A stretch of 64,000 nt of DNA from an uncultured Pelagimonas sp. (GTDB lineage Bacteria; Pseudomonadota; Alphaproteobacteria; Rhodobacterales; Rhodobacteraceae): assembly GCA_947497905.1 (NCBI GenBank), contig CANMIH010000002.1, forward strand, positions 186,001-250,000. The letters run 5' to 3'. This document shows positions 6,453-18,887 of the stretch, piece by piece. Every line of letters starts with the position of its first letter. Within the stretch, counting starts at the first letter, position 1. The position numbers were made by a program, and so were the translations under genes. The notes beneath the pieces were generated by a model. The model worked only from the letters and a program-made list of their open reading frames with translations. It was not told the DNA's origin and made no database searches.

Positions 6453-7745
6453 ATGGTCGATATCGCCACCCGCGTCTGGAACCACAAATGGAAGATCGAT
6501 CCGATCGTCCGGTCCCTGATTGATACCGATTTCTACAAGCTGCTGATGTGTCAGTCGGTGTATCGCAACAAACGCGATACACAGGTGACGTTCAGTCTGA
6601 TCAATCGGTCGTCTCAGGTTCCTTTGGCCAAGTTAATCGATGAAGGCGAATTGCGCGAGCATCTTGACCACATTCGGTCGCTTTCCTTGTCGCGTGGCGA
6701 AAGCACATGGCTGCGCGGCAACACCTTTTACGGCAAACGTCAGATGTTCCGCCCGGATTTCATGGAGTGGTTCGAGAACCTGCGCCTGCCGGATTACCAT
6801 CTGGAGCGGATTGGCGATCAGTATGAGCTGACATTTGAAGGGGCCTGGCCCGAGGTCATGTTGTGGGAAATCCCGGCGCTTTCCGTTCTGATGGAGTTGC
6901 GGGGCCGTGCGGTTCTCAACGACATGAAGAAGTTTGAGCTTCAGGTGCTTTATGCCCGCGCGATGACCAAACTTTGGGAAAAGATCGAGAAACTGCAACA
7001 GGTTGAAGATCTGCGTATCGCTGATTTTGGCACACGGCGCCGGCATTCCTTCCTCTGGCAGGACTGGTGTGTCCAGGCCATGGTCGAAGGATTGGGGGAT
7101 CGTTTCATTGGCACGTCCAATTGTTTGATTGCGAAAAACCGAGACCTTGAAGCCATTGGCACCAATGCGCATGAGCTGCCGATGGTTTATGCGGCTCTTG
7201 CCGAAGGAGATACCGCACTGGCACAGGCGCCCTATGAGGTACTTGAGGACTGGCAAGATGAGCACGACGGCAACCTGCGTATTATCTTGCCTGACACCTA
7301 TGGCACCGAAGGGTTTTTGCGACGGGCGCCTGACTGGCTTGCGGGTTGGACCGGTATTCGGATCGATTCCGGTGACCCTGCAACGGGCGCTGAGGTGGCG
7401 ATTAAGTGGTGGCAAGATCGAGGCGAAGATCCCCGCCAAAAGCTTGTCATCTTTTCTGATGGTTTGGATGAAACCAAAATTTCAGAGCTGTACCAACAGT
7501 TTCAGGGCCGCGTGCGCGTGTCCTTTGGCTGGGGCACCTTGCTGACCAATGATTTCCGTGGACTGGCCCCGAATGACGGGCTGGCGCCCTTCTCGCTTGT
7601 CTGCAAAGCGGTTGAGGCAAATGGCAAAGCTACGGTCAAATTGTCGGACAACCCGAAGAAGGCCATGGGACCGCAAGAGCAGATCGACCGCTATAAGCGG
7701 GTGTTCGGAGTGGGAGATCAGGCCGAGATTGACGTGATGGTCTGA
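6453..7745 (+). CDS. pncB: Nicotinate phosphoribosyltransferase
   Basis: A 430-aa enzyme converting nicotinate and PRPP to nicotinate mononucleotide with ATP hydrolysis, the step after PncA. Family landmarks: LIDTDFYKLLM at the N-terminus, DFGTRRRHSF near residue 191, GTSN near 220, IRIDSGDP in the phosphoribosyl-binding half, FSDGLDE, and the closing GWGTLLTND and VCKAVEANG. Length agrees with alphaproteobacterial PncB. The ribosome-binding site is weak. A strong intrinsic terminator follows 12 bp after the stop. Together with pncA this completes a two-step nicotinamide salvage route. Confidence 0.96.
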   Translation: MVDIATRVWNHKWKIDPIVRSLIDTDFYKLLMCQSVYRNKRDTQVTFSLINRSSQVPLAKLIDEGELREHLDHIRSLSLSRGESTWLRGNTFYGKRQMFRPDFMEWFENLRLPDYHLERIGDQYELTFEGAWPEVMLWEIPALSVLMELRGRAVLNDMKKFELQVLYARAMTKLWEKIEKLQQVEDLRIADFGTRRRHSFLWQDWCVQAMVEGLGDRFIGTSNCLIAKNRDLEAIGTNAHELPMVYAALAEGDTALAQAPYEVLEDWQDEHDGNLRIILPDTYGTEGFLRRAPDWLAGWTGIRIDSGDPATGAEVAIKWWQDRGEDPRQKLVIFSDGLDETKISELYQQFQGRVRVSFGWGTLLTNDFRGLAPNDGLAPFSLVCKAVEANGKATVKLSDNPKKAMGPQEQIDRYKRVFGVGDQAEIDVMV

Positions 7746-7757
7746 CCAACTGACGAA

Positions 7758-7791
7758 AACAGCCCCCTGCATTTGGGGGCTGTTGATTTTT
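7758..7791. terminator. Intrinsic terminator between pncB and the DUF4345 gene
   Basis: Inverted repeat aacagccccc / gggggctgtt (10-bp stem, 7-nt loop) followed on the + strand by GATTTTTG. It ends pncB transcription. The stem has AA before it on the reverse side, so it may weakly serve the convergent gene ending at 7807 as well. Confidence 0.9.
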
Positions 7792-7806
7792 GACTGTCCT
7801 AAATCT

Positions 7807-8190
7807 TTAAGCCATTGCCAGATTTGAGTGTGCGCTCATCAAAACGGCGATGATCACAATTTCTACGATCAGCGGCGGCACAACTTCTTTCTGCAGGCCA
7901 TCGGCGATGATGCTGACAACGCGGCCAACGGCAACTGCGCCCAGGATCAATGAAACCACCACAAAGCCCATGGTTTCCCCGGTGATCAGTTCATGCGCCA
8001 GGATCACCACGCAAGAGAGAAACAATCCGCCAATCACCGATCGGATGGTGCTCAGACCGGGCACGCCAATGGGTTCGATTGCAAAGTTGCCGATCATTTT
8101 ACGAGGGGCAAACATCGACATGACGCCGAGGCCGGTCAGCATGAGGGTGGCGGCGCCAACGAGTAGTTTGAGAATAAGGTCGAGTTCCAT
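7807..8190 (-). CDS. DUF4345-type four-helix membrane protein
   Basis: A 127-aa, strongly hydrophobic protein with about four membrane segments (near 7-27, 46-66, 73-95 and 105-122). The pattern GLGVMSMFAPRKMI, then PIGVPGLSTIRSVIGGLFL, matches the DUF4345 family of unknown function. Start ATG 8190 is preceded by AAAGGAAC; longer in-frame starts up to 8355 overlap the SDR gene and are rejected. It lies 28 bp behind the SDR gene, so the two are probably co-transcribed and controlled by the divergent LysR regulator. Confidence 0.8.
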   Translation of the reverse strand: MELDLILKLLVGAATLMLTGLGVMSMFAPRKMIGNFAIEPIGVPGLSTIRSVIGGLFLSCVVILAHELITGETMGFVVVSLILGAVAVGRVVSIIADGLQKEVVPPLIVEIVIIAVLMSAHSNLAMA

Positions 8191-8218
8191 AGTAATGTTC
8201 CTTTCGAGGGGGGGTCGT

Positions 8219-9142
8219 TTAGGCGAAAGCTGCGATGGCACGGAGTGCGCTGTCTTGAAGAGCGGGCTCTCCCAGGCGGGCATCAACGGTGGTTTGGTCA
8301 ACGATTGTGCCGGTGGGTGATCCCGCGCGGCTGGCGTAGAAATGACCGCTTTCATATTTTGGGTTCAAAAGACCATCGACATAGCGTTTGGCCCCGGTTT
8401 CCAGACCGTGCATCATGCCGAACAGGGGCATCAGCACACCGCCGATGTGTTTGAAGAACAGACGTTTGACGAATGACAGATCGTCAAATCCATTGGTGCC
8501 GGTGGTGCCGCCCGGGCTCATGGTGACGAAACGAACATGCGGATGCTGACGGGCCATTGCGCTCATCCACAGGGCCGCCGTCAGCTTGATGTTGGCATAA
8601 ACAACCAGCGGATCTCCTTCGGGACCAAATTTGCTGCCATCGGCGATGGAGGTGAATTCTTTTGGTTCTTCTGATGCAAGTTCGGGACGGGGGATGCCCA
8701 TCTTTGGAATGCCCCGTGCGGCCTCGGAGCCGGCATAAAGCACGGATGAGGTGATCAGTTGCCGCTCAAGCATTTCATTGACCAAAACGACATGTCCCAG
8801 AACGTTAGTGGCGAAGACATGGGTCACGCCATCCTCTGTCAGCGCATAGGGGGTCCGCCCTCCGGTTCCACCTGCATTCAGGATTACGGCGTCAACCGGA
8901 GTTGTCATTTCCGAGACCGCGTTGCGGATGGTGGCTGGGTTCATCATGTCGATCAAAACGATGTCGAAAATCTTGCGCCCTGTTTCAGCTTCCAGCGCCG
9001 ATTTGGCGGCCTGGGCTTTGTCGGCGCTGCGGCAGGCAAGAATGATCTTCTCGATGCCTTTTTGCTGGGCCAGTTGGCGGGCAGCTTCGCGCCCTAGACC
9101 TGCATTTGCGCCAGTGATCAGTACGGATTGAATTGGTGTCAT
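8219..9142 (-). CDS. Short-chain dehydrogenase/reductase
   Basis: A 307-aa NAD(P)-dependent oxidoreductase. The Rossmann start is ITGANAGLGREAA (TGxxxGxG). Further SDR marks are DAVILNAGG (NAG motif), a Ser/Tyr region ending in YANIK (YxxxK) and MSPGGTTGTNG after it, where most SDRs have PG. It resembles the retinol-dehydrogenase/WW-oxidoreductase-like branch that acts on long or lipophilic alcohols, but the substrate cannot be told. It is divergent from a LysR gene with about 120 bp between, and precedes the DUF4345 gene. This three-gene layout is typical of a regulator controlling its neighbour. Confidence 0.88.
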   Translation of the reverse strand: MTPIQSVLITGANAGLGREAARQLAQQKGIEKIILACRSADKAQAAKSALEAETGRKIFDIVLIDMMNPATIRNAVSEMTTPVDAVILNAGGTGGRTPYALTEDGVTHVFATNVLGHVVLVNEMLERQLITSSVLYAGSEAARGIPKMGIPRPELASEEPKEFTSIADGSKFGPEGDPLVVYANIKLTAALWMSAMARQHPHVRFVTMSPGGTTGTNGFDDLSFVKRLFFKHIGGVLMPLFGMMHGLETGAKRYVDGLLNPKYESGHFYASRAGSPTGTIVDQTTVDARLGEPALQDSALRAIAAFA

Positions 9143-9261
9143 TGTGTTGGGTCCGGTGTGGTGTGTTGCGATGTCTCCAAACTAAGGTGGTTGAGAAATG
9201 CTGTGTATCCGGGCAAAGCTGAACATGATGGTTCAAAAATGGAACACGCGAGGATCCGGTG

Positions 9262-10188
9262 ATGACACAGGACGGGCAAGAGTTTGATTGGGATGATCTC
9301 AAGGTGTTTCTGGCGGTTGCGCGCGCGGGGACCCTCCGTGGGGCTGCGGAAGCCAGCGGGGCCAATCACACGACGCTGACCCGCAGGCTTTCGATTTTGG
9401 AAGATCGCATCGGTAGCCGATTGTTTGACCGGTCAAAGGCCGGGTTGGTTCTTACACAGCTAGGTGAAGACCTGTTGCCCTATGCTCAGCGCGTTGAAGA
9501 TGAGATGGTTTCGGCCGCGCGGGTGATTGTAGGGCGGGATGCCCAGCCTGCCGGGACGGTTTACTTGACCCTACCCCATGGTCTGGCGATGACATCCTTG
9601 ATGGACGATCTTTCGCGTTTTGCCGATCTCTATCCTGACATTCATCTGAATATGACATTCAGCAACGACGTCGCCGATTTGACGCGGCGCGAAGCAGATG
9701 TGTCGCTGCGCGTGGCCCATGAGGTGACGGATGATGTGGTGGGGCGTAAATTGGTGCAGATGTCCCAGGCGGCCTATTGCACTCGCGAGTATGCCAAACG
9801 GGTGCGTGACAACGAAGGCGAGGGCCTCACGCTTATTGGGTGGCATGAACCTGAGGATCAGGTCACGGCGAAATGGGTGCAGGACAGCTATTACCCAAAG
9901 GCTCAGCTGAAACACCGCGTGTCCGAATTGGTACCGCTGATCACGCTGGCCGCGTCGGGATTGGGCATGGCCTATCTAGCCTGCAATCTTGGGGATCGGC
10001 ACCCGGATTTGATCCGTGCCCCGTTTCAGAAACCCCTGCCATATCGCAGTCTTTGGCTCTTGCTGCACCGCGATCTGCGCAACACCGCCCGGGTGCGCCT
10101 GTTTGTCGACTATCTGGCGGGTCAGGTGAAAGCGCGCCGCAATGAGTTCTGGGTGGCGGGAACCGTTCCCTTTGTCGGGGCGGAATAG
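9262..10188 (+). CDS. LysR-family transcriptional regulator
   Basis: A 308-aa DNA-binding regulator. The winged helix-turn-helix occupies residues 8-67 (DLKVFLAVARAGTLRGAAEA, then TTLTRRLSILEDRIGSRLFD). The remainder is the periplasmic-binding-protein-like effector domain typical of the family. ATG 9262, seven nt after AGGA, is a better start than the GTG three bases upstream. It is transcribed away from the SDR/DUF4345 pair, its likely target as well as itself. The effector is unknown. The 3' end lies 3 bp from the convergent binding-protein gene. Confidence 0.92.
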   Translation: MTQDGQEFDWDDLKVFLAVARAGTLRGAAEASGANHTTLTRRLSILEDRIGSRLFDRSKAGLVLTQLGEDLLPYAQRVEDEMVSAARVIVGRDAQPAGTVYLTLPHGLAMTSLMDDLSRFADLYPDIHLNMTFSNDVADLTRREADVSLRVAHEVTDDVVGRKLVQMSQAAYCTREYAKRVRDNEGEGLTLIGWHEPEDQVTAKWVQDSYYPKAQLKHRVSELVPLITLAASGLGMAYLACNLGDRHPDLIRAPFQKPLPYRSLWLLLHRDLRNTARVRLFVDYLAGQVKARRNEFWVAGTVPFVGAE

Positions 10189-10191
10189 GGA

Positions 10192-11277
10192 TTACTGTAC
10201 CAATTCGATAATCCGGGTCATGACTTTTGCCGAAGGCATAGGCACCACCAGTGCAACGGTCTCGGGAAGGGTGGCGACTTTGATCGCAGCAGGATCGTTT
10301 TCGACGCCAATCAAACCAGTGCGAAAGCCGTGCTGCGCCCAGGCGATGCTCTGAATCTCAGGATCGGCCAGAGCCTCCTGCAACCGGTCACAGGTGTCAT
10401 TGAGCGCGATCAGCGGGTGCGAGGCAAAGATCGTGGGTTCGGGATAAATCACGCGGATTTTTTCGCGGATGAGATCCGCATATTGCGTGTTCTCAGAAAG
10501 AAACTCGACCAGCTGGTTTTCATAGCCAACAATGATAGGGCGTGCGCCCATACCCTGTTTCAGGAAGTTCTCAAAGATATCGCCCGAGCTGGATTCCATA
10601 TGGCCCATCGCGTCGAAGTAGCCCGTCACGCGCGGCAGCAATGTGGACAGGTTGTCTTCTGTTGGTGGGGTCCCGTTGTTGAACGAGGTGGCCAAAAGCC
10701 CGGACCAGATGTTGCCAGAGTTGGATTTCGCGGGGTGGGTCGAGAAGATTTTGAATGGGCCGTAGATGTTCAGACCCAAATCCTCCTGCCAGCGGGCACC
10801 GTCTGCGATCATCTCTCCGAGTACATCAACATCCGCCAGAAGTGTTTCACCGTCACGTCGCACGGCCCCTTTGTTTTCAAGCGCATCGGCAACTTGATCC
10901 CAGGCATAAAACACGATGGGCGAATTAAAGATCGTCTCGTCGCCTTTCACAGGTTTTCCCGAATTCCGGGCCAGTTCCACCGCCACCATATTGGAGGGCC
11001 AAAGACAGTCTTTGCCGGTGCTGGCGAGATTGGTCACCATCTCAATTGACCCGGCTTTGGTGGCGTCCAGCGTGATTTTATAGCGGTCGTTGATGATGCG
11101 CGAGACCTCCGGATTGGCCAAAAGCGATGACTTTTCGCCACCGTAATAGATCGACACCTCGACACGCTCGCGTGGGGTGACGTTCCGGGTCAGGCTCGAC
11201 AGGTCGACAAGAGAGGCGCCGACGGCAACGGCAGCGACACCGCCCAAGATAAGCAGGCCCATCAGGGAACGTTTCAT
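10192..11277 (-). CDS. Extracytoplasmic solute-binding-like protein, third gene of a VWA/XpaC operon
   Basis: A 361-aa protein with an N-terminal signal anchor or signal peptide (SLMGLLILGGVAAVAVGASL), followed by a type-2 periplasmic-binding-protein-like body: VSIYYGGEKSSLL, CLWPSNMVAVELARNSG, SPIVFYAWDQVAD and KIFSTHPAKSNSGN. The same order of elements recurs in the binding domain of the VWA protein two genes upstream (VWPAHSLWIEMG, SPVVLGLR, TSATQSNSG), suggesting duplication. Its ATG overlaps the XpaC-like stop (ATGA). No ABC permease or ATPase is near, so it is probably not a transporter component. The role is unknown; the operon context suggests a membrane-associated sensing or stress function. 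Confidence 0.72.
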   Translation of the reverse strand: MKRSLMGLLILGGVAAVAVGASLVDLSSLTRNVTPRERVEVSIYYGGEKSSLLANPEVSRIINDRYKITLDATKAGSIEMVTNLASTGKDCLWPSNMVAVELARNSGKPVKGDETIFNSPIVFYAWDQVADALENKGAVRRDGETLLADVDVLGEMIADGARWQEDLGLNIYGPFKIFSTHPAKSNSGNIWSGLLATSFNNGTPPTEDNLSTLLPRVTGYFDAMGHMESSSGDIFENFLKQGMGARPIIVGYENQLVEFLSENTQYADLIREKIRVIYPEPTIFASHPLIALNDTCDRLQEALADPEIQSIAWAQHGFRTGLIGVENDPAAIKVATLPETVALVVPMPSAKVMTRIIELVQ

Positions 11278-11876
11278 GTCATTCTCCGGCTGAGTTGTGT
11301 GCCCAGCGCATCGACTTCGGATTCGAGAGCGGCAAGGTCATTTTCGATACAGGCGCGATCAATCTGATCCACGACCGGTGCAAAGGCGCGGATCTGCGCT
11401 CCGAGTGCATCTAAGCGGTCGGACTGAGCGCCTTTGGTACGGCCGGTCAGACCCGCATAGGTTTCAACGGTCTGCACCATGTTTGGCAGATAGGTGGTGA
11501 TAAACCGGCGCGTCAGGCGATAGTCCTCAGGATCTCTGAGAATGTTCTCACGGATAGAGAGAATACGCTGGGCCATCTCTTCCACGGCCGTTGCATCCGC
11601 CTTTGGAAGCTTGGTGATTGTGTCGGTCAAACGTTTGGCGCTGTCAGACAAAGCCTCGCCTGCGGATTGCAGATCCGCTTTGCTGGTTTTTGCGGTCAGG
11701 ATGATCTCGTCAGCGCGGCGCCGGTGAGGGATGACCAACAAAAGCGCGCCATACCCAACGGCCGCCAACACCAGCGCCAGCCACCAGACCAGATTGAGAC
11801 CAAAGAACAGGCCTAGAAAGAGGATCGCCGCAAGTATCCCCGCCGTGATCTGGCGAGGGCCGTCGTAAAGTGCCAT
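11274..11876 (-). CDS. XpaC-like membrane protein (5-bromo-4-chloroindolyl phosphate hydrolysis family)
   Basis: A 200-aa protein with two adjacent membrane helices (about 10-28 and 31-49), then a long helical cytoplasmic part containing NILRDPEDYRLTRRFITTYL and NMVQTVETYAGL. That RRFITTYLP...ETY pattern is characteristic of XpaC-type proteins, which often sit beside TelA (tellurite/toxic-anion resistance). The family name comes from an old hydrolysis phenotype; an enzymatic activity is not established by sequence. Here no telA gene is adjacent. The start overlaps the stop of the VWA gene (TGATG) and its stop overlaps the next start (ATGA), so all three are translationally coupled. Confidence 0.75.
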   Translation of the reverse strand: MALYDGPRQITAGILAAILFLGLFFGLNLVWWLALVLAAVGYGALLLVIPHRRRADEIILTAKTSKADLQSAGEALSDSAKRLTDTITKLPKADATAVEEMAQRILSIRENILRDPEDYRLTRRFITTYLPNMVQTVETYAGLTGRTKGAQSDRLDALGAQIRAFAPVVDQIDRACIENDLAALESEVDALGTQLSRRMT

Positions 11877-13482
11877 CAGTTGTATCCTTTGGCTTTGCGC
11901 AGCGCCGATGCGAGGTCATCACCAGCATGGAACAGGCGACCAATGGAAATCTGCGAAAGCTCGTTGAGTTGCTCTTCATCGGCTTGGCCAAAGGCGATGG
12001 CATGGATTGGAATATCTTGCGCAAACGCCGACCGCTTCATGTACCCCAAAAGGCCTTCACGATTGTCGATGCTAGAGGCACCGTCAGTCATGGCGACAAT
12101 GGCGGGCAAATAGTCGAAAAGTGCGCCGGTGTCATGCCAGTCGCTCATGGCCTCGAAAGCCTCGTAAATCGCATAATAGATATCGGTGCCCCCATCCGCC
12201 TGTAGGCCTTGAACCGCGCGCAGCGCTTTGGTGAGTTCCGCCTTTTCCGATCCTTCGATGGTGGTTGGGGGAAGGATCTTGTGGTTGAACGGTAGGACGA
12301 TCGTGACATCACGAGATGAGGGCTGCAGCAGATTGACCGAGGCCGCCTGTGGATCGAGTAAAAGCGTCATGGCCTGTTTCAGCTCGCTCAGCGGTTCACC
12401 CTCCATCGAGCCAGAGACATCAAGCACCCAGATCGTGAGAGAGGGTTTGCGCAGCTCGGTCTGATACAGGCGCAGCGCCTCACCAATCACCTCAGCGCCG
12501 GGTGTGGGAATGGGGGCAATGGTGCGGTTCAGATCAACGCCCCACTCGGGGTTCCAGATTGTGGGGTCCGCGCTGGCCGAGCTGAGCCCCAAAAGGCCAG
12601 CGCGCCGTCCTAACCCCGTCAGAAGCTCGGTCGCCTCTTTGGTCTGAAGGAAGCTTTGCAGCTGAAGGAACACCTCTTCTTTGGCAGCATCCCCCTTGCT
12701 GATATACCCCAGTGGACTGTCCGCAACGGCCAGACCATTGGCGGGATAAATCACGTAGAGCGGGTCCTGACCGACGCGCGTAAGGGTCTGATTTGCTTCG
12801 ATGACCAATGCCTCATAGTTGAACATGGCGTCGAACGTATCTGGATTGGTGACCAGCGCATCCTTGAGCCAGCCTGAGGAGCCTGAAGATCGGTCCACCT
12901 GCGCCAGAAGCGCACGCACACCGTCAAGCGTTTGGGTGTCTTGCAGATCGCTGAGGGTGAGCACATCGGGATTGCCGGCAAGCGCATAGAAAAACCCGAA
13001 ATAGGCAGAGGCCCCAGAATTGGATTGCGTGGCTGACGTCATCGACAGGCGAAACTTCCCATCTTGCGCGGCCTGTTGGATGTCTTGGATTGTGATATCT
13101 GACCGGCCAATCCAGCCGAGATCTTCCGCAATCGATTTACGAAGCCCCAGAACGACCGGCGAACGCAACACAGAGGTGTCGTGTTTCACAACTTTATGGG
13201 TGTCGCCCATTTCAATCCAAAGGGAATGTGCGGGCCAGACCGCATCAAATTGGCTGTCTGTGCCCTTGTTCAATTCGCGGGCGATGTCGATGGATCCGAG
13301 ATAGCTCACCTCAAGATCGACGCGATTGTCGCTGGCCCAATTCCGGATCAGCGGTTCAAGCGCTTTGTTCTCAGACCCGGAAACGATGTGAAGCGATGTG
13401 CGCGACAGGTCGGAGCCATAAAAAGCGCTGCGGCAGCGAGGCAGAGCGCGATAAGGGAAAAAACTAGAATACGAGGCTTCAT
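11876..13482 (-). CDS. Binding-protein/VWA-domain fusion with an apparent frameshift in the signal peptide
   Basis: The body is a periplasmic-binding-like domain (about residues 25-325) followed by a von Willebrand factor A domain. The MIDAS metal site is intact: DVSGSM near residue 355, DGGTDIYYA near 435 and AMTDGASS near 465. ATG at 13482 opens a good signal peptide (MKPRILVFSLIALCLAAAAL), but it is in a different frame from the body. One extra base in the A5 run at 13420-13424 would fuse them into a 535-aa exported protein. Without it, the body frame has only an ATG at 13498 giving a non-signal Arg/Tyr-rich start. Exported VWA domains usually bind protein partners. First gene of the three-gene operon. 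Confidence 0.72.
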
Positions 13483-13728
13483 GATACCAACTCTGCAACA
13501 GAAACTGTCGGGAGTGTTACCAATTTTGAGGCCTGCGCCTAGCGAACATAAGTGTTTGAGCGCCCTTTTTCATAAAAGTGTCATACGGGCGAGTGTCAGA
13601 TAACTCAGGCCTGTGTGTTCAAAATGTTCCGCCTTTGCCCCAAGGCGCGGCACAGCGCAGCCCCGGTGGGTTTCCCGCTTTTCTTGACTGCGCAGCTTGG
13701 GTAAGCACAGAGCGTCAAGGAGGACGCC

Positions 13729-14814
13729 ATGACCAAGATCGTACCGCAGCCCGGTATCATGGATATTGACCTTTACGTTGGCGGGAAAGCCCACGTCGAA
13801 GGTGTGTCGAATGTGATCAAGTTGAGCTCAAACGAAAATCCGTTTGGGCCAAGCGATGCCGCTCAGGAGGCGGTCAAGCGTGTGCTTCATGACATGCATC
13901 GCTACCCATCGACAGATCATGCTGAGCTGCGCAGCGCGATTGCAGAGATCCACGGCCTAGAGAGCGACCGGATCATTTGTGGCGCTGGAAGCGATGAGAT
14001 CATCGCCTTTCTGTGTCAGGCCTATGCTGGCGTTGGGGACGAGGTGCTGTTCACCGAACATGGATTTTCCATGTACCGCATCAGCGCCCTTGCGGCAGGC
14101 GCTACACCTGTCGAGGTGAAAGAGCGGGAACGCGTCACCGATGTTGATGCTCTATTGGCGGGATGTACCGAGCGCACGAAGCTTGTGTTTATCGCCAACC
14201 CAAATAATCCGACCAGCACGATGATCGGTTTGGCCGAATTGGAACGTCTCGCGGAAGGTCTGCCTGAGCAGGCGCTTTTGGTGCTGGACGGCGCCTATGC
14301 GGAATATGTTGAAGGCTATGATGGCGGTGCCAAGCTTGTTGAAGCGCGCGACAACGTCTTTATGACCCGCACATTCTCCAAGCTCTATGGCCTGGGTGCG
14401 ATGCGTGTCGGCTGGGGCTATGGGCCACGCGAAATTGTTGATGTGCTGAACCGGGTGCGGGGACCGTTCAATCTGTCTTCGGCGGCCCTTGCTGCGGCTG
14501 AGGCCGCTGTGCGCGATGTGGCTTATGTTGAGAAATGCCGCTCCGAGAACGCGCGGCTGCGTGCGTGGTTGAGCGAAGCGCTGGGCGAACATGGTGTGTC
14601 CTGCGACACCTCCATGGCGAACTTTGTCCTGGCGCGGTTCCGCAATCAGGCCGAAGCCGAGGCCTGCGACACCTACCTGCAAAAACAGGGTCTGATTGTG
14701 CGCCGCGTTGGCGGGTATAACCTTCCCAATTGCCTGCGGATCACCGTTGGGGATGAGCCTGCCTGTCGTCAGGTTGCCCATGCTGTTGGCCAATTCAAAG
14801 CTGGTGCAACATGA
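13729..14814 (+). CDS. hisC: Histidinol-phosphate aminotransferase
   Basis: A 361-aa PLP enzyme of fold type I that makes L-histidinol phosphate; relatives in this position may also transaminate aromatic keto acids. Motifs: [12 protein letters not shown] near the N-terminus, [26 protein letters not shown], and the Schiff-base lysine Lys218 in [18 protein letters not shown]. Strong ribosome-binding site AAGGAGG lies 6 nt before the ATG. The prephenate dehydrogenase gene overlaps its end by 4 nt (ATGA), so tyrosine biosynthesis is a likely joint role. The 246-bp gap to the divergent VWA operon should hold both promoters. Confidence 0.94.
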
Positions 14815-15731
14815 GTGTGATCTACAACCGCGTTGCACTGATTGGGCTGGGGTTGATTGCCTCGTCGATGTACTGGGCTATGAAACGCGACGGCGTAGCT
14901 GGTCACGTGACGGGCTATGCGCGATCTGATGACACTCGCGAAACGGCCCGGCGGATTGGCCTATGCGATACTGTCTGTGATAGCGCCGAAGAGGCGGTCA
15001 TAGACGCGGATCTGATTGTGCTGGCTGTGCCGGTGGGGGCGATGGGCGCTGTGACACGCCAGATCGCAGACCACCTGAAACCCGGGGCCACCGTGATTGA
15101 TGTTGGATCGGTCAAGCGCACGGTCATCGATGAAGTTGCGCCACATCTTCCGGAAGGCGTACATTTTGTGCCGACACACCCCATGGCGGGTACCGAGCAC
15201 TCGGGACCGGAATCCGGTTTTGCCACGCTGTTCGACAATCGGCGCAGCCTGATTGTTCCGGTTGAGAATTGCCCTGAAGAGGCCGTGACCCGGGTCGAGA
15301 CCTATTGGCAGGCTTTGGGCGCGATGACCGACCGTATGGACCCAGAGCACCATGATCTGGTCTGCGCAGTTGTGAGCCACATTCCTCACCTGATTGCCTA
15401 TACGATGGTGGGCGTGGCAGACGATCTGCGCCGGGTGACAGATCAGGAAGTGATCAAATATTCGGCTGCGGGCTTTCGCGATTTTACCCGCATCGCGGCC
15501 TCGGATCCGACCATGTGGCGCGACGTGTTTTTGACCAACAAAGACGCCACAATCGAAATGTTGGGCCGTTTTACCGAAGAGCTGTTTGCGCTGCAGCGGG
15601 CCATCCGAACCGGGGATGGTGAGCAGCTTCATGCCTATTTCACTCACACCCGTGCCATTCGTCGTGGCATTCTTGAGGCCGGACAGGATACGGATAAACC
15701 TGATTTTGGTCGAGTGAAGGTGGAACGGTGA
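14811..15731 (+). CDS. Prephenate/arogenate dehydrogenase
   Basis: A 306-aa NAD(P)-dependent dehydrogenase of the TyrA type, giving 4-hydroxyphenylpyruvate or tyrosine. The N-terminal Rossmann motif is [12 protein letters not shown] (GLGLI, with ASS instead of the usual GGS). Further marks are [31 protein letters not shown] (substrate and catalytic region) and [15 protein letters not shown]. There is no fused chorismate mutase or ACT domain. It overlaps hisC by 4 nt and the extensin gene by 4 nt (GTGA), so three proteins are translated from one message. Whether prephenate or arogenate is preferred cannot be read from the sequence. Confidence 0.93.
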
Positions 15732-16390
15732 AACGCATTTTTCTGGGGCTGTGTTTGGCATTGGCGGCTTGCGGTGGTCGGGACGAAACACCAGCGCGCG
15801 AAACAAACTCGCTGGATGGGATCCGCAACTATCTTGAACGGGCATTTGCCGACAATGACAGTGCCATAGGTGGTATTTGCGGTGACAGCTCACTGCAAGG
15901 GGAGGTGGTCGGAGATGTGCCGGGGCGGATTTCCGGCTGTGGCATTCCCAATGCGGTGCGTTTGACATCGGTTGATGGTGTGGCACTTAGCCAGCCGTCC
16001 TTGATGAATTGCGCAACGGCGTCAGCGCTGAAAACCTGGATCAATGATGGTGCGCGTCCAGCGGTGAAACGTCAGGGCGGCGGGATTTCTGGCTTGCGGG
16101 TTGCGGCCCATTACTCCTGTCGCACGCGCAACAATCAACCAGGCGCCAAGATTTCCGAGCATGGTCGCGGCAAAGCGATTGATATCTCGGCCATCCTTCT
16201 GGCGGATGGATCAGAAATGTCGGTTCTGCGTGACTGGGGATCGGGTAAAAAAGGCCGTGCTTTGCGTCAGATGCATGGGGCGGCCTGTGGTCCCTTTGGT
16301 ACGGTGCTTGGCCCGGAATCGGATAGATTTCACCGTGACCATTTCCATTTTGATACCGCGAAACACGGCAACGGATCTTATTGCAGATAA
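15728..16390 (+). CDS. Extensin-family lipoprotein
   Basis: A 220-aa protein with a lipoprotein signal ([18 protein letters not shown], lipobox LAAC, Cys15), so it should be membrane-anchored in the periplasm. The rest is the extensin-like C-terminal domain of bacteria: CSLQG-like and GCGIPNAVRLT early on, paired cysteines, SYSC-like HYSCRTRNN, the HGRGKAIDIS box and the closing HRDHFHFD. Those His/Asp residues resemble the zinc site of LAS/DD-carboxypeptidase-type enzymes, so peptidoglycan hydrolysis is a reasonable guess (inference). GTG start overlaps the dehydrogenase stop. A strong hairpin follows the stop. Confidence 0.85.
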   Translation: MKRIFLGLCLALAACGGRDETPARETNSLDGIRNYLERAFADNDSAIGGICGDSSLQGEVVGDVPGRISGCGIPNAVRLTSVDGVALSQPSLMNCATASALKTWINDGARPAVKRQGGGISGLRVAAHYSCRTRNNQPGAKISEHGRGKAIDISAILLADGSEMSVLRDWGSGKKGRALRQMHGAACGPFGTVLGPESDRFHRDHFHFDTAKHGNGSYCR

Positions 16391-16396
16391 GCAAGA

Positions 16397-16425
16397 GGGC
16401 GGGGAAATCCCCGCCCTATCTCTTT
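16397..16425. terminator. Intrinsic terminator between the extensin and flotillin genes
   Basis: A 9-bp GC-rich perfect stem (gggcgggga / tccccgccc) with a 2-nt spacer, followed on the + strand by TATCTCTTTT. The AAGA run on the other side is weak, so it chiefly ends the hisC operon, though it lies just after the flotillin stop too. Confidence 0.8.
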
Positions 16426-16437
16426 TCGCGACTTTGA

Positions 16438-18138
16438 TCAGGCCTGCGCGTTGTCGGTGTCCTCGTCGGCATCAGCGCCGTTGGCCTCATCTGATGCAGG
16501 GCCTTCATCCTCACCCATCAATCCCGAAACGGTGCCGTCCATCGACATGCCAAGGTCGTCACCCAGTTTCTTCAAGGCAGGCAGCTGAACGGCCATACCC
16601 ATGATGGAATCGAGGGCCTGGTTGATTGGGGCTTTGCCACCGTTTTCCCCGTTGCCGCCCGCTGTGCCGTTCTGCAGGCCCCCAACCTGATGAATGCGGA
16701 TCGAGTCGATCTTCTCGGCAGGTTTGACAGCCTCGGCCAGTACCTTCGGCATCGCCTCGAGGCGCGCGAGATCGACCTTCATCGCGATCAGTTCAGCAGA
16801 CAGCGCGTTTTCAGCATCGGTGATGGCGCGTTTGCCTTCCGCTTCGGCCAGCATGTCCTTTTTCTTGGCTTCGGCACGGATGGTCAGAGCGTCGGCCTCG
16901 GCCTGCGCCTCTTCGCGACGCGCTTCGGCACGGTCAGATGCGGCTTCTTTTTCAGCCTGCGCCGCAAGACGGATCTTGGTGGCTTCCCGTTCCGCCTCGC
17001 GAGAGGCTTCAATGAGGGCGATCTGCTTCAGACGCTCTGCTTCGGCCACGTCTTTGGCGGTGGTTACAGCCTCCAGGGCTTTGGTGGCTTCAGCGCGGGC
17101 CAGATCGGCAGAAGCGCGCGCGCGGCTTTCCTCTTCTGACTTCTGAGCGATGATGATCTGGCGTTCCTGATTGGCGACCTCAAGCTCACGTTCTTTGTTG
17201 ATCTCGGCCTCTTGAACCGCACGCTCTTTGGCGATCTCCGCATCACGAATTTTGCGTTCACGCTCAATTTCTGCGGCACGAATGGCCTCTTCACGTGCAA
17301 TCCGGGAACGCTCTGTCTCACGAACCGAATCTTCTGTGCGCGCAGCAATCTCGGCCTCTTGAGCAACCTTCATGGTCTCGATCTGCTGAATCTGCGCAAT
17401 CTTGGCCTCTTCCTCATCCCGTTGAATGATCAGCTTTTGCTTTTCAGCCTCCATTGCAGCGCGACGCACGGACACATCGGCATCTGCATCAATCTGGGCG
17501 CGTTCCTTTTTCGAAGTGGCAATCACCTCGGCCAGTTTGCGCATCCCGACCGCGTTAAAGGCGTTGTTTTCGTCCAGAGCTTCAAAGGGGGTCTGGTCGA
17601 GGGCCGTGAGTGAGACGGATTCAAGGGACAGACCGTTTTTCAGAAGATCCTCGGACACTGTGTTTTGCACTTCCTGTACAAAGTCCGCGCGGTTCTCGTG
17701 CAGTTGGTCCATCGACATCTGGGCCGCAACGGCGCGCAGACTGTCAATCAGTTTGCCTTCAATCATCTCACGCAACTGTTCGATGTCAAAGGTACGATCC
17801 CCAAGCGTCTGCGCGGCACGGGCCACACCTTCATCTGTGGGTTGAACTGAGACATAAAATTCGACGCCGACATCAACGCGCATCCGGTCTTTGGTGATCA
17901 AGGCACCGTCACCGTCGCGTTTCACCTCGAGGCGTAGGGTCTTCATGTTGACGGGGCTGACCTCGTGCAACAGAGGCACCACAATCACGCCCCCATCCAT
18001 GATGACCTTTTTGCCGCCAGCCCCGGTTTTCACAAGACTGATTTCGCGAGTGGCACGGCGATACAGGCGACCCAACACCAGACCAACAAACAACAGCAAT
18101 GCAAGGCCGACAACGACCCAAATGAGTAGAAGTTCCAT
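16438..18138 (-). CDS. yqiK: Flotillin-like SPFH protein (YqiK type)
   Basis: A 566-aa membrane scaffold protein. One N-terminal membrane helix (about 3-25) is followed by an SPFH/band-7 domain (about 30-215, with KVIMDGGVIVVPLLHEV and VDVGVEFYVSV). A very long Ala/Glu/Arg-rich coiled coil (about 225-470) contains repeated EAERE/KERE patterns typical of flotillins. The end (about 500-566) is Gly/Asn-rich, then acidic. Flotillins assemble into ordered membrane microdomains and affect signalling and envelope stress. The partner YqiJ-like gene lies 26 bp upstream on the same strand, the conserved yqiJ-yqiK pairing. Its coiled-coil coding bias produces long false reading frames on the opposite strand. 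Confidence 0.92.
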   Translation of the reverse strand: MELLLIWVVVGLALLLFVGLVLGRLYRRATREISLVKTGAGGKKVIMDGGVIVVPLLHEVSPVNMKTLRLEVKRDGDGALITKDRMRVDVGVEFYVSVQPTDEGVARAAQTLGDRTFDIEQLREMIEGKLIDSLRAVAAQMSMDQLHENRADFVQEVQNTVSEDLLKNGLSLESVSLTALDQTPFEALDENNAFNAVGMRKLAEVIATSKKERAQIDADADVSVRRAAMEAEKQKLIIQRDEEEAKIAQIQQIETMKVAQEAEIAARTEDSVRETERSRIAREEAIRAAEIERERKIRDAEIAKERAVQEAEINKERELEVANQERQIIIAQKSEEESRARASADLARAEATKALEAVTTAKDVAEAERLKQIALIEASREAEREATKIRLAAQAEKEAASDRAEARREEAQAEADALTIRAEAKKKDMLAEAEGKRAITDAENALSAELIAMKVDLARLEAMPKVLAEAVKPAEKIDSIRIHQVGGLQNGTAGGNGENGGKAPINQALDSIMGMAVQLPALKKLGDDLGMSMDGTVSGLMGEDEGPASDEANGADADEDTDNAQA

Positions 18139-18164
18139 GAAACTCTCCCTGAAAAAATATGTAG

Positions 18165-18887
18165 TTAGATGTCGCCTAGCGCGACAATGCGATACCCTTC
18201 GTCATAGCGCTGTCGCAGGACGATCACCTCGGTGCCTTGAGCAATCGAGACGTTGTCGCGCAGAGTTTCAGCGCGCAGATAATGGGTGTTGCCAAAGCGA
18301 TCGCTGACGCGGACTTCGGCGGGGCGGCCGCGGGCGGCTGTGCCCTGGCTGACGACCCCTTTGCGACGGCCCAGATGGCGTTCAGACACCGACTGGGTTT
18401 CGTCTTTGGGCAGAAGCCGGGCAAATACCGCCCCGAAACGGCCTGCAAACCAAAGCGATCCGATTGCGGCGGGAAGGGCCGCCAACCAAGCGGGCAGTGC
18501 AGTTGTGAAGACAGCTGCCATCACCTGCTGGAGCGTGATCCCGGCCAGTCCAAACCCGGCCAAGACGGTTCCCAACCAGATCAACGCGGGCATGCGGCCA
18601 AAACCAAGCCAGGCGGATAGGCCCGTGTCGGTCACGGTTGGAGCGTCGATTTCCTCAAAACTGGCAAGTTCAAGGCTATCGATATCCACATCCCCCAGAT
18701 CCAGATCCAAGTCCCCCAATTCAGGGGGGTCGAGATCCGGCCCGTCGAGGTCAATGTTATCTCCGCCGAGCCCCAAGAGCGTGCCGCCCAGAAGGGCGAA
18801 AATCAGTTCTAGGATCAAAAGACCCAGAAAAAGGCCAAGCGAAATGGAAAACGGAAAATAGGCTTCCGTCAGAAGTTGGGTAAACAT
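18165..18887 (-). CDS. yqiJ: YqiJ-like membrane protein with C-terminal OB/NfeD-type domain
   Basis: A 240-aa protein with an N-terminal membrane helix (about 14-38), an acidic Asp-rich linker (about 43-75, repeated DLDxxD), two further membrane stretches (near 95-115 and 120-150), and a C-terminal beta-rich domain with HLGRRKGVVSQGTAARGRPA and EVIVLRQRYDEGYRIV. This is the architecture of NfeD/YqiJ proteins, which work with the flotillin encoded next (26-bp gap). NfeD-class proteins are thought to bind their partner flotillin through the OB fold. Upstream 150 bp contain a palindrome that could control the pair. Confidence 0.85.
   Translation of the reverse strand: MFTQLLTEAYFPFSISLGLFLGLLILELIFALLGGTLLGLGGDNIDLDGPDLDPPELGDLDLDLGDVDIDSLELASFEEIDAPTVTDTGLSAWLGFGRMPALIWLGTVLAGFGLAGITLQQVMAAVFTTALPAWLAALPAAIGSLWFAGRFGAVFARLLPKDETQSVSERHLGRRKGVVSQGTAARGRPAEVRVSDRFGNTHYLRAETLRDNVSIAQGTEVIVLRQRYDEGYRIVALGDI

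Follow-up and report, generated by a model that had tools for sequence, protein, structure and literature searches.

A three-gene operon in an uncultured Pelagimonas that joins a binding-domain/VWA fusion, an XpaC-family protein and a second binding protein, with a candidate role in envelope stress

Introduction

Periplasmic binding proteins, VWA domains and XpaC-family proteins can each be recognized from sequence, and the question here is what they might do together. In a 64,000-nucleotide stretch of DNA from an uncultured Pelagimonas sp. (Rhodobacteraceae; contig CANMIH010000002.1, positions 186,001 to 250,000), which we call the window, three adjacent reverse-strand genes encode a substrate-binding domain fused to a VWA domain, an XpaC-family protein and a second binding protein, SBP2. 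An earlier note, made from the sequence alone, singled out this trio as the window's best candidate for an undescribed system. The literature agrees as far as it was searched: no description of the trio as a module was found, the Ter-system analysis by Anantharaman and colleagues and Collins 2010 lying outside the search. Below we ask in turn whether the trio is a real unit, whether it is intact in this genome, what its parts resemble and which function they suggest.

Layout of the locus

All features of the trio lie on the minus strand. Gene 1 (11876..13498) is an open frame from TTG 13498 and encodes the fusion, with a type II substrate-binding domain (PF13531, SBP_bac_11, approximately 12614-13384, read from approximately 13402) followed by a VWA domain (PF00092, approximately 11930-12436). 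The DxSxS motif of the VWA metal site, or MIDAS, is encoded at 12407..12421 and contributes D360, S362 and S364 (ORF numbering); T438 and D472 follow downstream. Gene 2 (11274..11876) belongs to the XpaC family (PF10112) and encodes two hydrophobic segments and then a helical domain. Gene 3 (10192..11277) encodes SBP2, in which an N-terminal membrane helix precedes a type II substrate-binding fold. The overlaps between the genes are as the earlier note had described them: ORF coordinates and junction sequence give TGATG between genes 1 and 2 (1-nt overlap) and ATGA between genes 2 and 3 (4-nt overlap). Upstream, hisC is divergent, and downstream, only three bases away, a LysR gene is convergent; thus, the trio is a free-standing unit.

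A flotillin gene (PF15975) and a YqiJ-like/OB-fold gene form a pair near the trio (window 16438-18887). When window positions 6453-18887 are compared with the nearest relative, locus L007 (3519-13538), the block consisting of an extensin-like gene, prephenate dehydrogenase, hisC and the trio is turned around with respect to the nicotinate phosphoribosyltransferase and flotillin-YqiJ genes that flank it.

Conservation of the operon

To look for homologous operons, 84,980 species genomes were scanned with the SBP2 profile alone, so that loci were not chosen for carrying the fusion or XpaC genes. The scan returned 79 loci from at least ten phyla, with Alpha- and Gammaproteobacteria, Thermodesulfobacteriota, Bacillota, Spirochaetota, Nitrospirota, Planctomycetota, Cyanobacteriota/Melainabacteria, Acidobacteriota and Chloroflexota represented, and plasmid records extend the range to Betaproteobacteria and Actinomycetota. 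The order fusion, XpaC, SBP2 is kept in about 69 of the 81 loci examined, although the locus counts are not independent (about 17 are from Bradyrhizobium). By family profiles, 27 loci have the three genes alone, 25 have a TelA gene upstream and 12 have one downstream; a broader XpaC profile adds five more loci with this order. Three loci from Beta- and Actinobacteria have the order SBP2, TelA, fusion, XpaC, which is a cyclic permutation, and in the two betaproteobacterial ones the protein in the XpaC position has two membrane helices and no significant match to the XpaC profile. Every order that contains TelA is a cyclic permutation of one order. Exceptions are mostly cut contigs, apart from two loci without a recognizable XpaC (L027 and L036) and one without the fusion (L063). 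In addition, the pairwise distances of the four families are correlated (rho 0.61-0.86).

The retention of gene order across phyla rules out chance linkage, and by this measure the trio is a genuine, conserved operon unit, as the earlier note had supposed when it called the genes coupled. That note had also named what would count against its idea, namely homologues without conserved linkage or with each gene in an unrelated transport operon; both were examined, and the idea survived. Judged by the genomes scanned, the operon is nevertheless rare and patchy in its distribution. Clustering of the flanking ORFs revealed no recurrent neighbor other than TelA; the clusters are mostly antisense shadow frames, two-component regulators and scattered ABC ATPases.

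A frame break in the fusion gene

In this genome as assembled, the frame of the fusion gene is broken near its start. The earlier note began the protein at ATG 13482, which opens a good signal peptide, MKPRILVFSLIALCLAAAALFM... (13420..13482, minus strand), but this start is out of frame with the binding domain. One frame gives way to the other at a T5 run (13420-13424). In contrast to this break, all 69 fusion homologues scored have an in-frame hydrophobic or lipoprotein-type N-terminus (63 were scored by hydrophobicity, and the other six are lipoprotein-type or short, cut by the automatic choice of start). Rhodovulum adriaticum DSM 2781 and Actibacterium mucosum are examples of relatives with an intact operon.

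A break at a T run in a gene that is intact in every relative scored could mean that the fusion is dying here and that the trio has no present function in this organism. We find this improbable. Between the window and L007, the fusion gene has a pN/pS of 0.30, compared with 0.22 for hisC and 0.25 for SBP2 (synonymous sites are near saturation in this comparison). The value indicates purifying selection, though for the most part it records the period preceding any recent break. Moreover, the gene carries no second lesion and its MIDAS is intact. With selection of this kind acting on the fusion, the break should be recent, be bypassed or come from the assembly; the same pattern would be expected from a mutation of very recent date, from slippage, or from a draft assembly that is one base off in the homopolymer.

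The VWA domain and the XpaC protein

The VWA match of the fusion scores 35.1 bits, above the cut-off, and the five MIDAS residues do not vary across 56 homologues drawn from many phyla. The middle protein matches the XpaC profile (PF10112, Halogen_Hydrol) over residues 10-191 with 57.6 bits against a cut-off of 29.8, and its two hydrophobic segments lie at about residues 10-50. An intact MIDAS behind a binding domain and an XpaC-like protein with two membrane helices, both read from the sequence in the earlier note, are confirmed.

The binding domains

The binding domain of the fusion is recognized by Pfam (SBP_bac_11, 55.7 bits, cut-off 25), whereas a profile scan gave no Pfam match for SBP2, SBP_bac_11 included. 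When the family profiles are aligned with each other, however, the two domains match over 293 columns (hhalign probability 97.5, E 5e-12), and at the level of profiles they are homologous. AlphaFold2 models both with high scores (fusion, pLDDT 92.6 and pTM 0.90; SBP2, pLDDT 92.1 and pTM 0.84), and both models have the type II periplasmic-binding fold. The common motif order that had been noticed in the two proteins is therefore borne out by an alignment as well as by the same modeled fold. Sequence searches for solved relatives returned none for SBP2 and only VWA domains for the fusion. By structure, the nearest are sulphate-binding proteins: the fusion model aligns with 5um2 at Z 28.1 (rmsd 3.2, 286 aligned) and the SBP2 model at Z 23.5 (rmsd 3.4, 276 aligned). 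As modeled, SBP2 works like a type II binding protein even though it falls outside the Pfam SBP_bac_11 family. For both models the close runners-up are thiamine, ferric, hexose-phosphate and polyamine binders. The modeled fold, common also to binders of iron, polyamines, thiamine and sugar phosphates, would thus not fix the class of ligand.

The binding site can be compared with that of Escherichia coli Sbp, which was added to the family alignments with MAFFT. We take the sulphate site of Sbp to comprise D11, S45, S130-G131-G132, A173 and W192. In this low-identity alignment, the Sbp segment NPKSSGG falls on an invariant or near-invariant SNSG in both binding domains, S45 falls on an invariant Ser of the fusion (the equivalent GS motif is invariant in SBP2), and W192 has no conserved counterpart in either domain. 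A conserved Ser of each domain is S37 in the trimmed fusion and S77 in SBP2. A small, perhaps anionic, ligand is plausible on these models, as is a role in sensing or capturing it. The sulphate-binding proteins Sbp and SubI (PDB 5um2, 1sbp and 6ddn) have the closest solved folds, and the Ser and Ser-Gly elements align; the trio differs from them in having no permease or ATPase, in the fusion of one domain to VWA and in the unconserved Trp.

The likeness to sulphate binders, with its retained Ser and Ser-Gly elements, also suits a different explanation, in which the two binding proteins serve as orphan receptors for an ABC importer whose genes lie elsewhere, with VWA and XpaC anchoring or clustering them for the uptake of sulphate, molybdate or a similar oxyanion. 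Here the surroundings of the operon are informative. The earlier note had remarked on the absence of an ABC permease, and this holds both for the operon itself and more widely: about 60 loci show no recurrent ABC permease or ATPase next to the operon, and nine of them have scattered ABC ATPases at a distance of 2.6-7.6 kb, on one strand or the other. A VWA fusion and linkage with XpaC and TelA are not features of importers either, and we regard the orphan-receptor explanation as unlikely. Without a permease of its own, the module would sense or sequester a ligand rather than import it.

A membrane segment is present in 68 of 78 SBP2 proteins. Many alphaproteobacterial ones begin with an SRRxF/M-like sequence that resembles a twin-arginine signal (23 of the 78 by a simple pattern; examples are L009 and the Bradyrhizobium loci).

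TelA as a frequent partner

TelA is the sole recurrent extra gene. It lies in the operon in about 40 homologous loci, or about half: directly upstream in 25, downstream in 12-13 and inside in three. No TelA gene is present in the trio operon or the window described here. The genome does have one, on another contig, in an XpaC-TelA-DUF2927 cluster with a second XpaC. This cluster, in which the DUF2927 protein is lipoprotein-like, is at L001 457-3572, and a similar one occurs in genome G017 (L010). Likewise, 38 genomes lack TelA at the fetched locus; 25 of them, almost all of the Rhodobacterales among these, carry it elsewhere. About ten genomes of other phyla have the trio and no detectable TelA, most of them MAGs that are possibly incomplete. 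In a Thermoanaerobaculia MAG without TelA (L030 9133-11845), SBP2 is followed by a PspA/IM30-like coiled-coil gene, below the Pfam cut-off, and an AAA ATPase-like gene also lies downstream; the two are possible stand-ins for TelA.

Co-occurrence in the family of the window is not informative, because TelA has a base rate of 88% there (260 of 297 genomes); SBP2 is found in nine genomes, all nine with TelA. A class-wide draw found SBP2 in seven of 289 genomes, and the six besides the present one all have TelA, adjacent in five. Taken across these genomes, TelA is a frequent but not an obligatory partner of the trio. The earlier note was right that TelA is absent locally, but the conclusion that the trio is unrelated to TelA does not follow, given the operon linkage in about half of the homologous loci; nor does the local absence remove an explanation by way of TelA, as this genome, like others of the Rhodobacterales, encodes the protein elsewhere. 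Lacking TelA in the operon does not make this trio exceptional.

In the SBP2 tree, which is unrooted and leaves the deep forks open, the Rhodobacterales trios form one group (support 100/99). They fall inside a TelA-unlinked set with Thiothrix and Achromatium (100/100), next to Desulfobacterales, and the quartets of Rhizobiales and Caulobacter form a separate group (100/100). Grouping with Thiothrix and Desulfobacterota makes it probable that the Rhodobacterales operons were acquired horizontally. Origin by loss of TelA from an alphaproteobacterial quartet was also considered and is not supported by this tree. Among the Rhodobacterales loci, the operon adjoins hisC in only four.

Comparison with known systems

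XpaC-TelA (YaaN) operons are known from Bacillus subtilis, Listeria (lmo1966-lmo1967), Lactococcus and Enterococcus. They have the XpaC-family protein in common with the trio, and TelA stands beside XpaC in many of the homologous loci; the sources cited below speak of XpaC alone or together with TelA and make no reference to VWA or binding proteins, and the trio here is TelA-unlinked. Those sources place xpaC-telA in the sigma-W, LiaSR and CesSR envelope-stress regulons (PMC3498285, PMC10269926, PMC12791056, PMC3139573): the genes are in the core sigma-W regulon in B. subtilis, under LiaR in Listeria and Enterococcus, and under CesSR in Lactococcus. This membership is the best functional lead for the trio.

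In B. subtilis, yuaF-floT and the pspA operon belong to the sigma-W regulon together with xpaC-yaaN. The window, L007 and a Variovorax plasmid (L132) each have flotillin and YqiJ/OB-fold genes close to the trio; on the plasmid, a flotillin/YqiJ-like pair is about 2 kb upstream of the operon SBP2-TelA-fusion. This neighborhood is limited to two independent lineages among about 80 loci, and these neighbors, like the PspA-like one, are suggestive only.

Ter systems (TerB/C/D/F, TerY-P, TelA) also combine TelA with a VWA protein, and sub-membrane structures have been proposed for them (PMC7824862). The VWA domain of the trio differs in its fusion to a binding domain and its predicted secretion, and Ter profiles, including TerC and TerD, had no match in the operon or the nearby proteins scanned. 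An anti-phage system was also considered and rejected, as PADLOC gave no match beyond a marginal TerY (E 0.006).

With TelA physically linked in about half of the loci and binding elements of the oxyanion type, resistance to tellurite or another toxic oxyanion has to be weighed; the binding domains would sequester the anion in the periplasm and TelA would handle what enters. TelA, however, owes its name to plasmid phenotypes, and in the account cited the sensitivity of a Listeria telA mutant rises 4-fold for nisin and 2-fold for tellurite (PMC12791056, citing Collins 2010). KlaABC (kilA-telA-telB) of RK2-type plasmids has the TelA family and lacks the binding proteins, VWA and XpaC, and it is not the same system (KlaA and KlaB are of the TelA family, and KlaC is TrbC-like). 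On balance, resistance is a doubtful explanation.

Proposed function

We give about an even chance to the trio being the core of an envelope-stress module, a sensor or scaffold that works with TelA. Its starting points are the gene set, gene order, predicted folds, conserved sites and membrane anchors, as sequence and models show them. For the topology of the complex, the ligand, the transfer of a signal and the role of VWA, we infer the following. Both binding domains would face the periplasm and bind a small, probably oxyanion-like ligand that is released or accumulates under envelope stress. Binding would alter a MIDAS-dependent contact of the VWA domain with SBP2 or XpaC, and XpaC would relay the change across the inner membrane to the cytoplasmic partner TelA, encoded in the operon or, as here, elsewhere. 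TelA may then stabilize the membrane or build a sub-membrane scaffold.

More tentatively, and with somewhat less than even confidence, the trio could be a widespread, undescribed type of transmembrane envelope sensor in which XpaC couples a diverged pair of sulphate-type binding proteins, one carrying a MIDAS VWA domain, to TelA or to a scaffold that takes its place; no transporter or kinase would be involved. The Rhodobacterales operon would be a TelA-unlinked form, acquired from relatives of sulphur-cycle bacteria.

Many conjugative plasmids carry TelA, and XpaC and TelA belong to the main envelope-stress regulons of several Gram-positive bacteria. The operon joins them to two matched binding domains outside the cytoplasm and to a VWA domain with a metal site; it thereby supplies testable partners for both proteins and suggests looking for a small ligand outside the membrane. 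It also accounts for a common pair of annotations: ‘toxic anion resistance protein’ and ‘substrate-binding and VWA domain-containing protein’ name two components of a single module.
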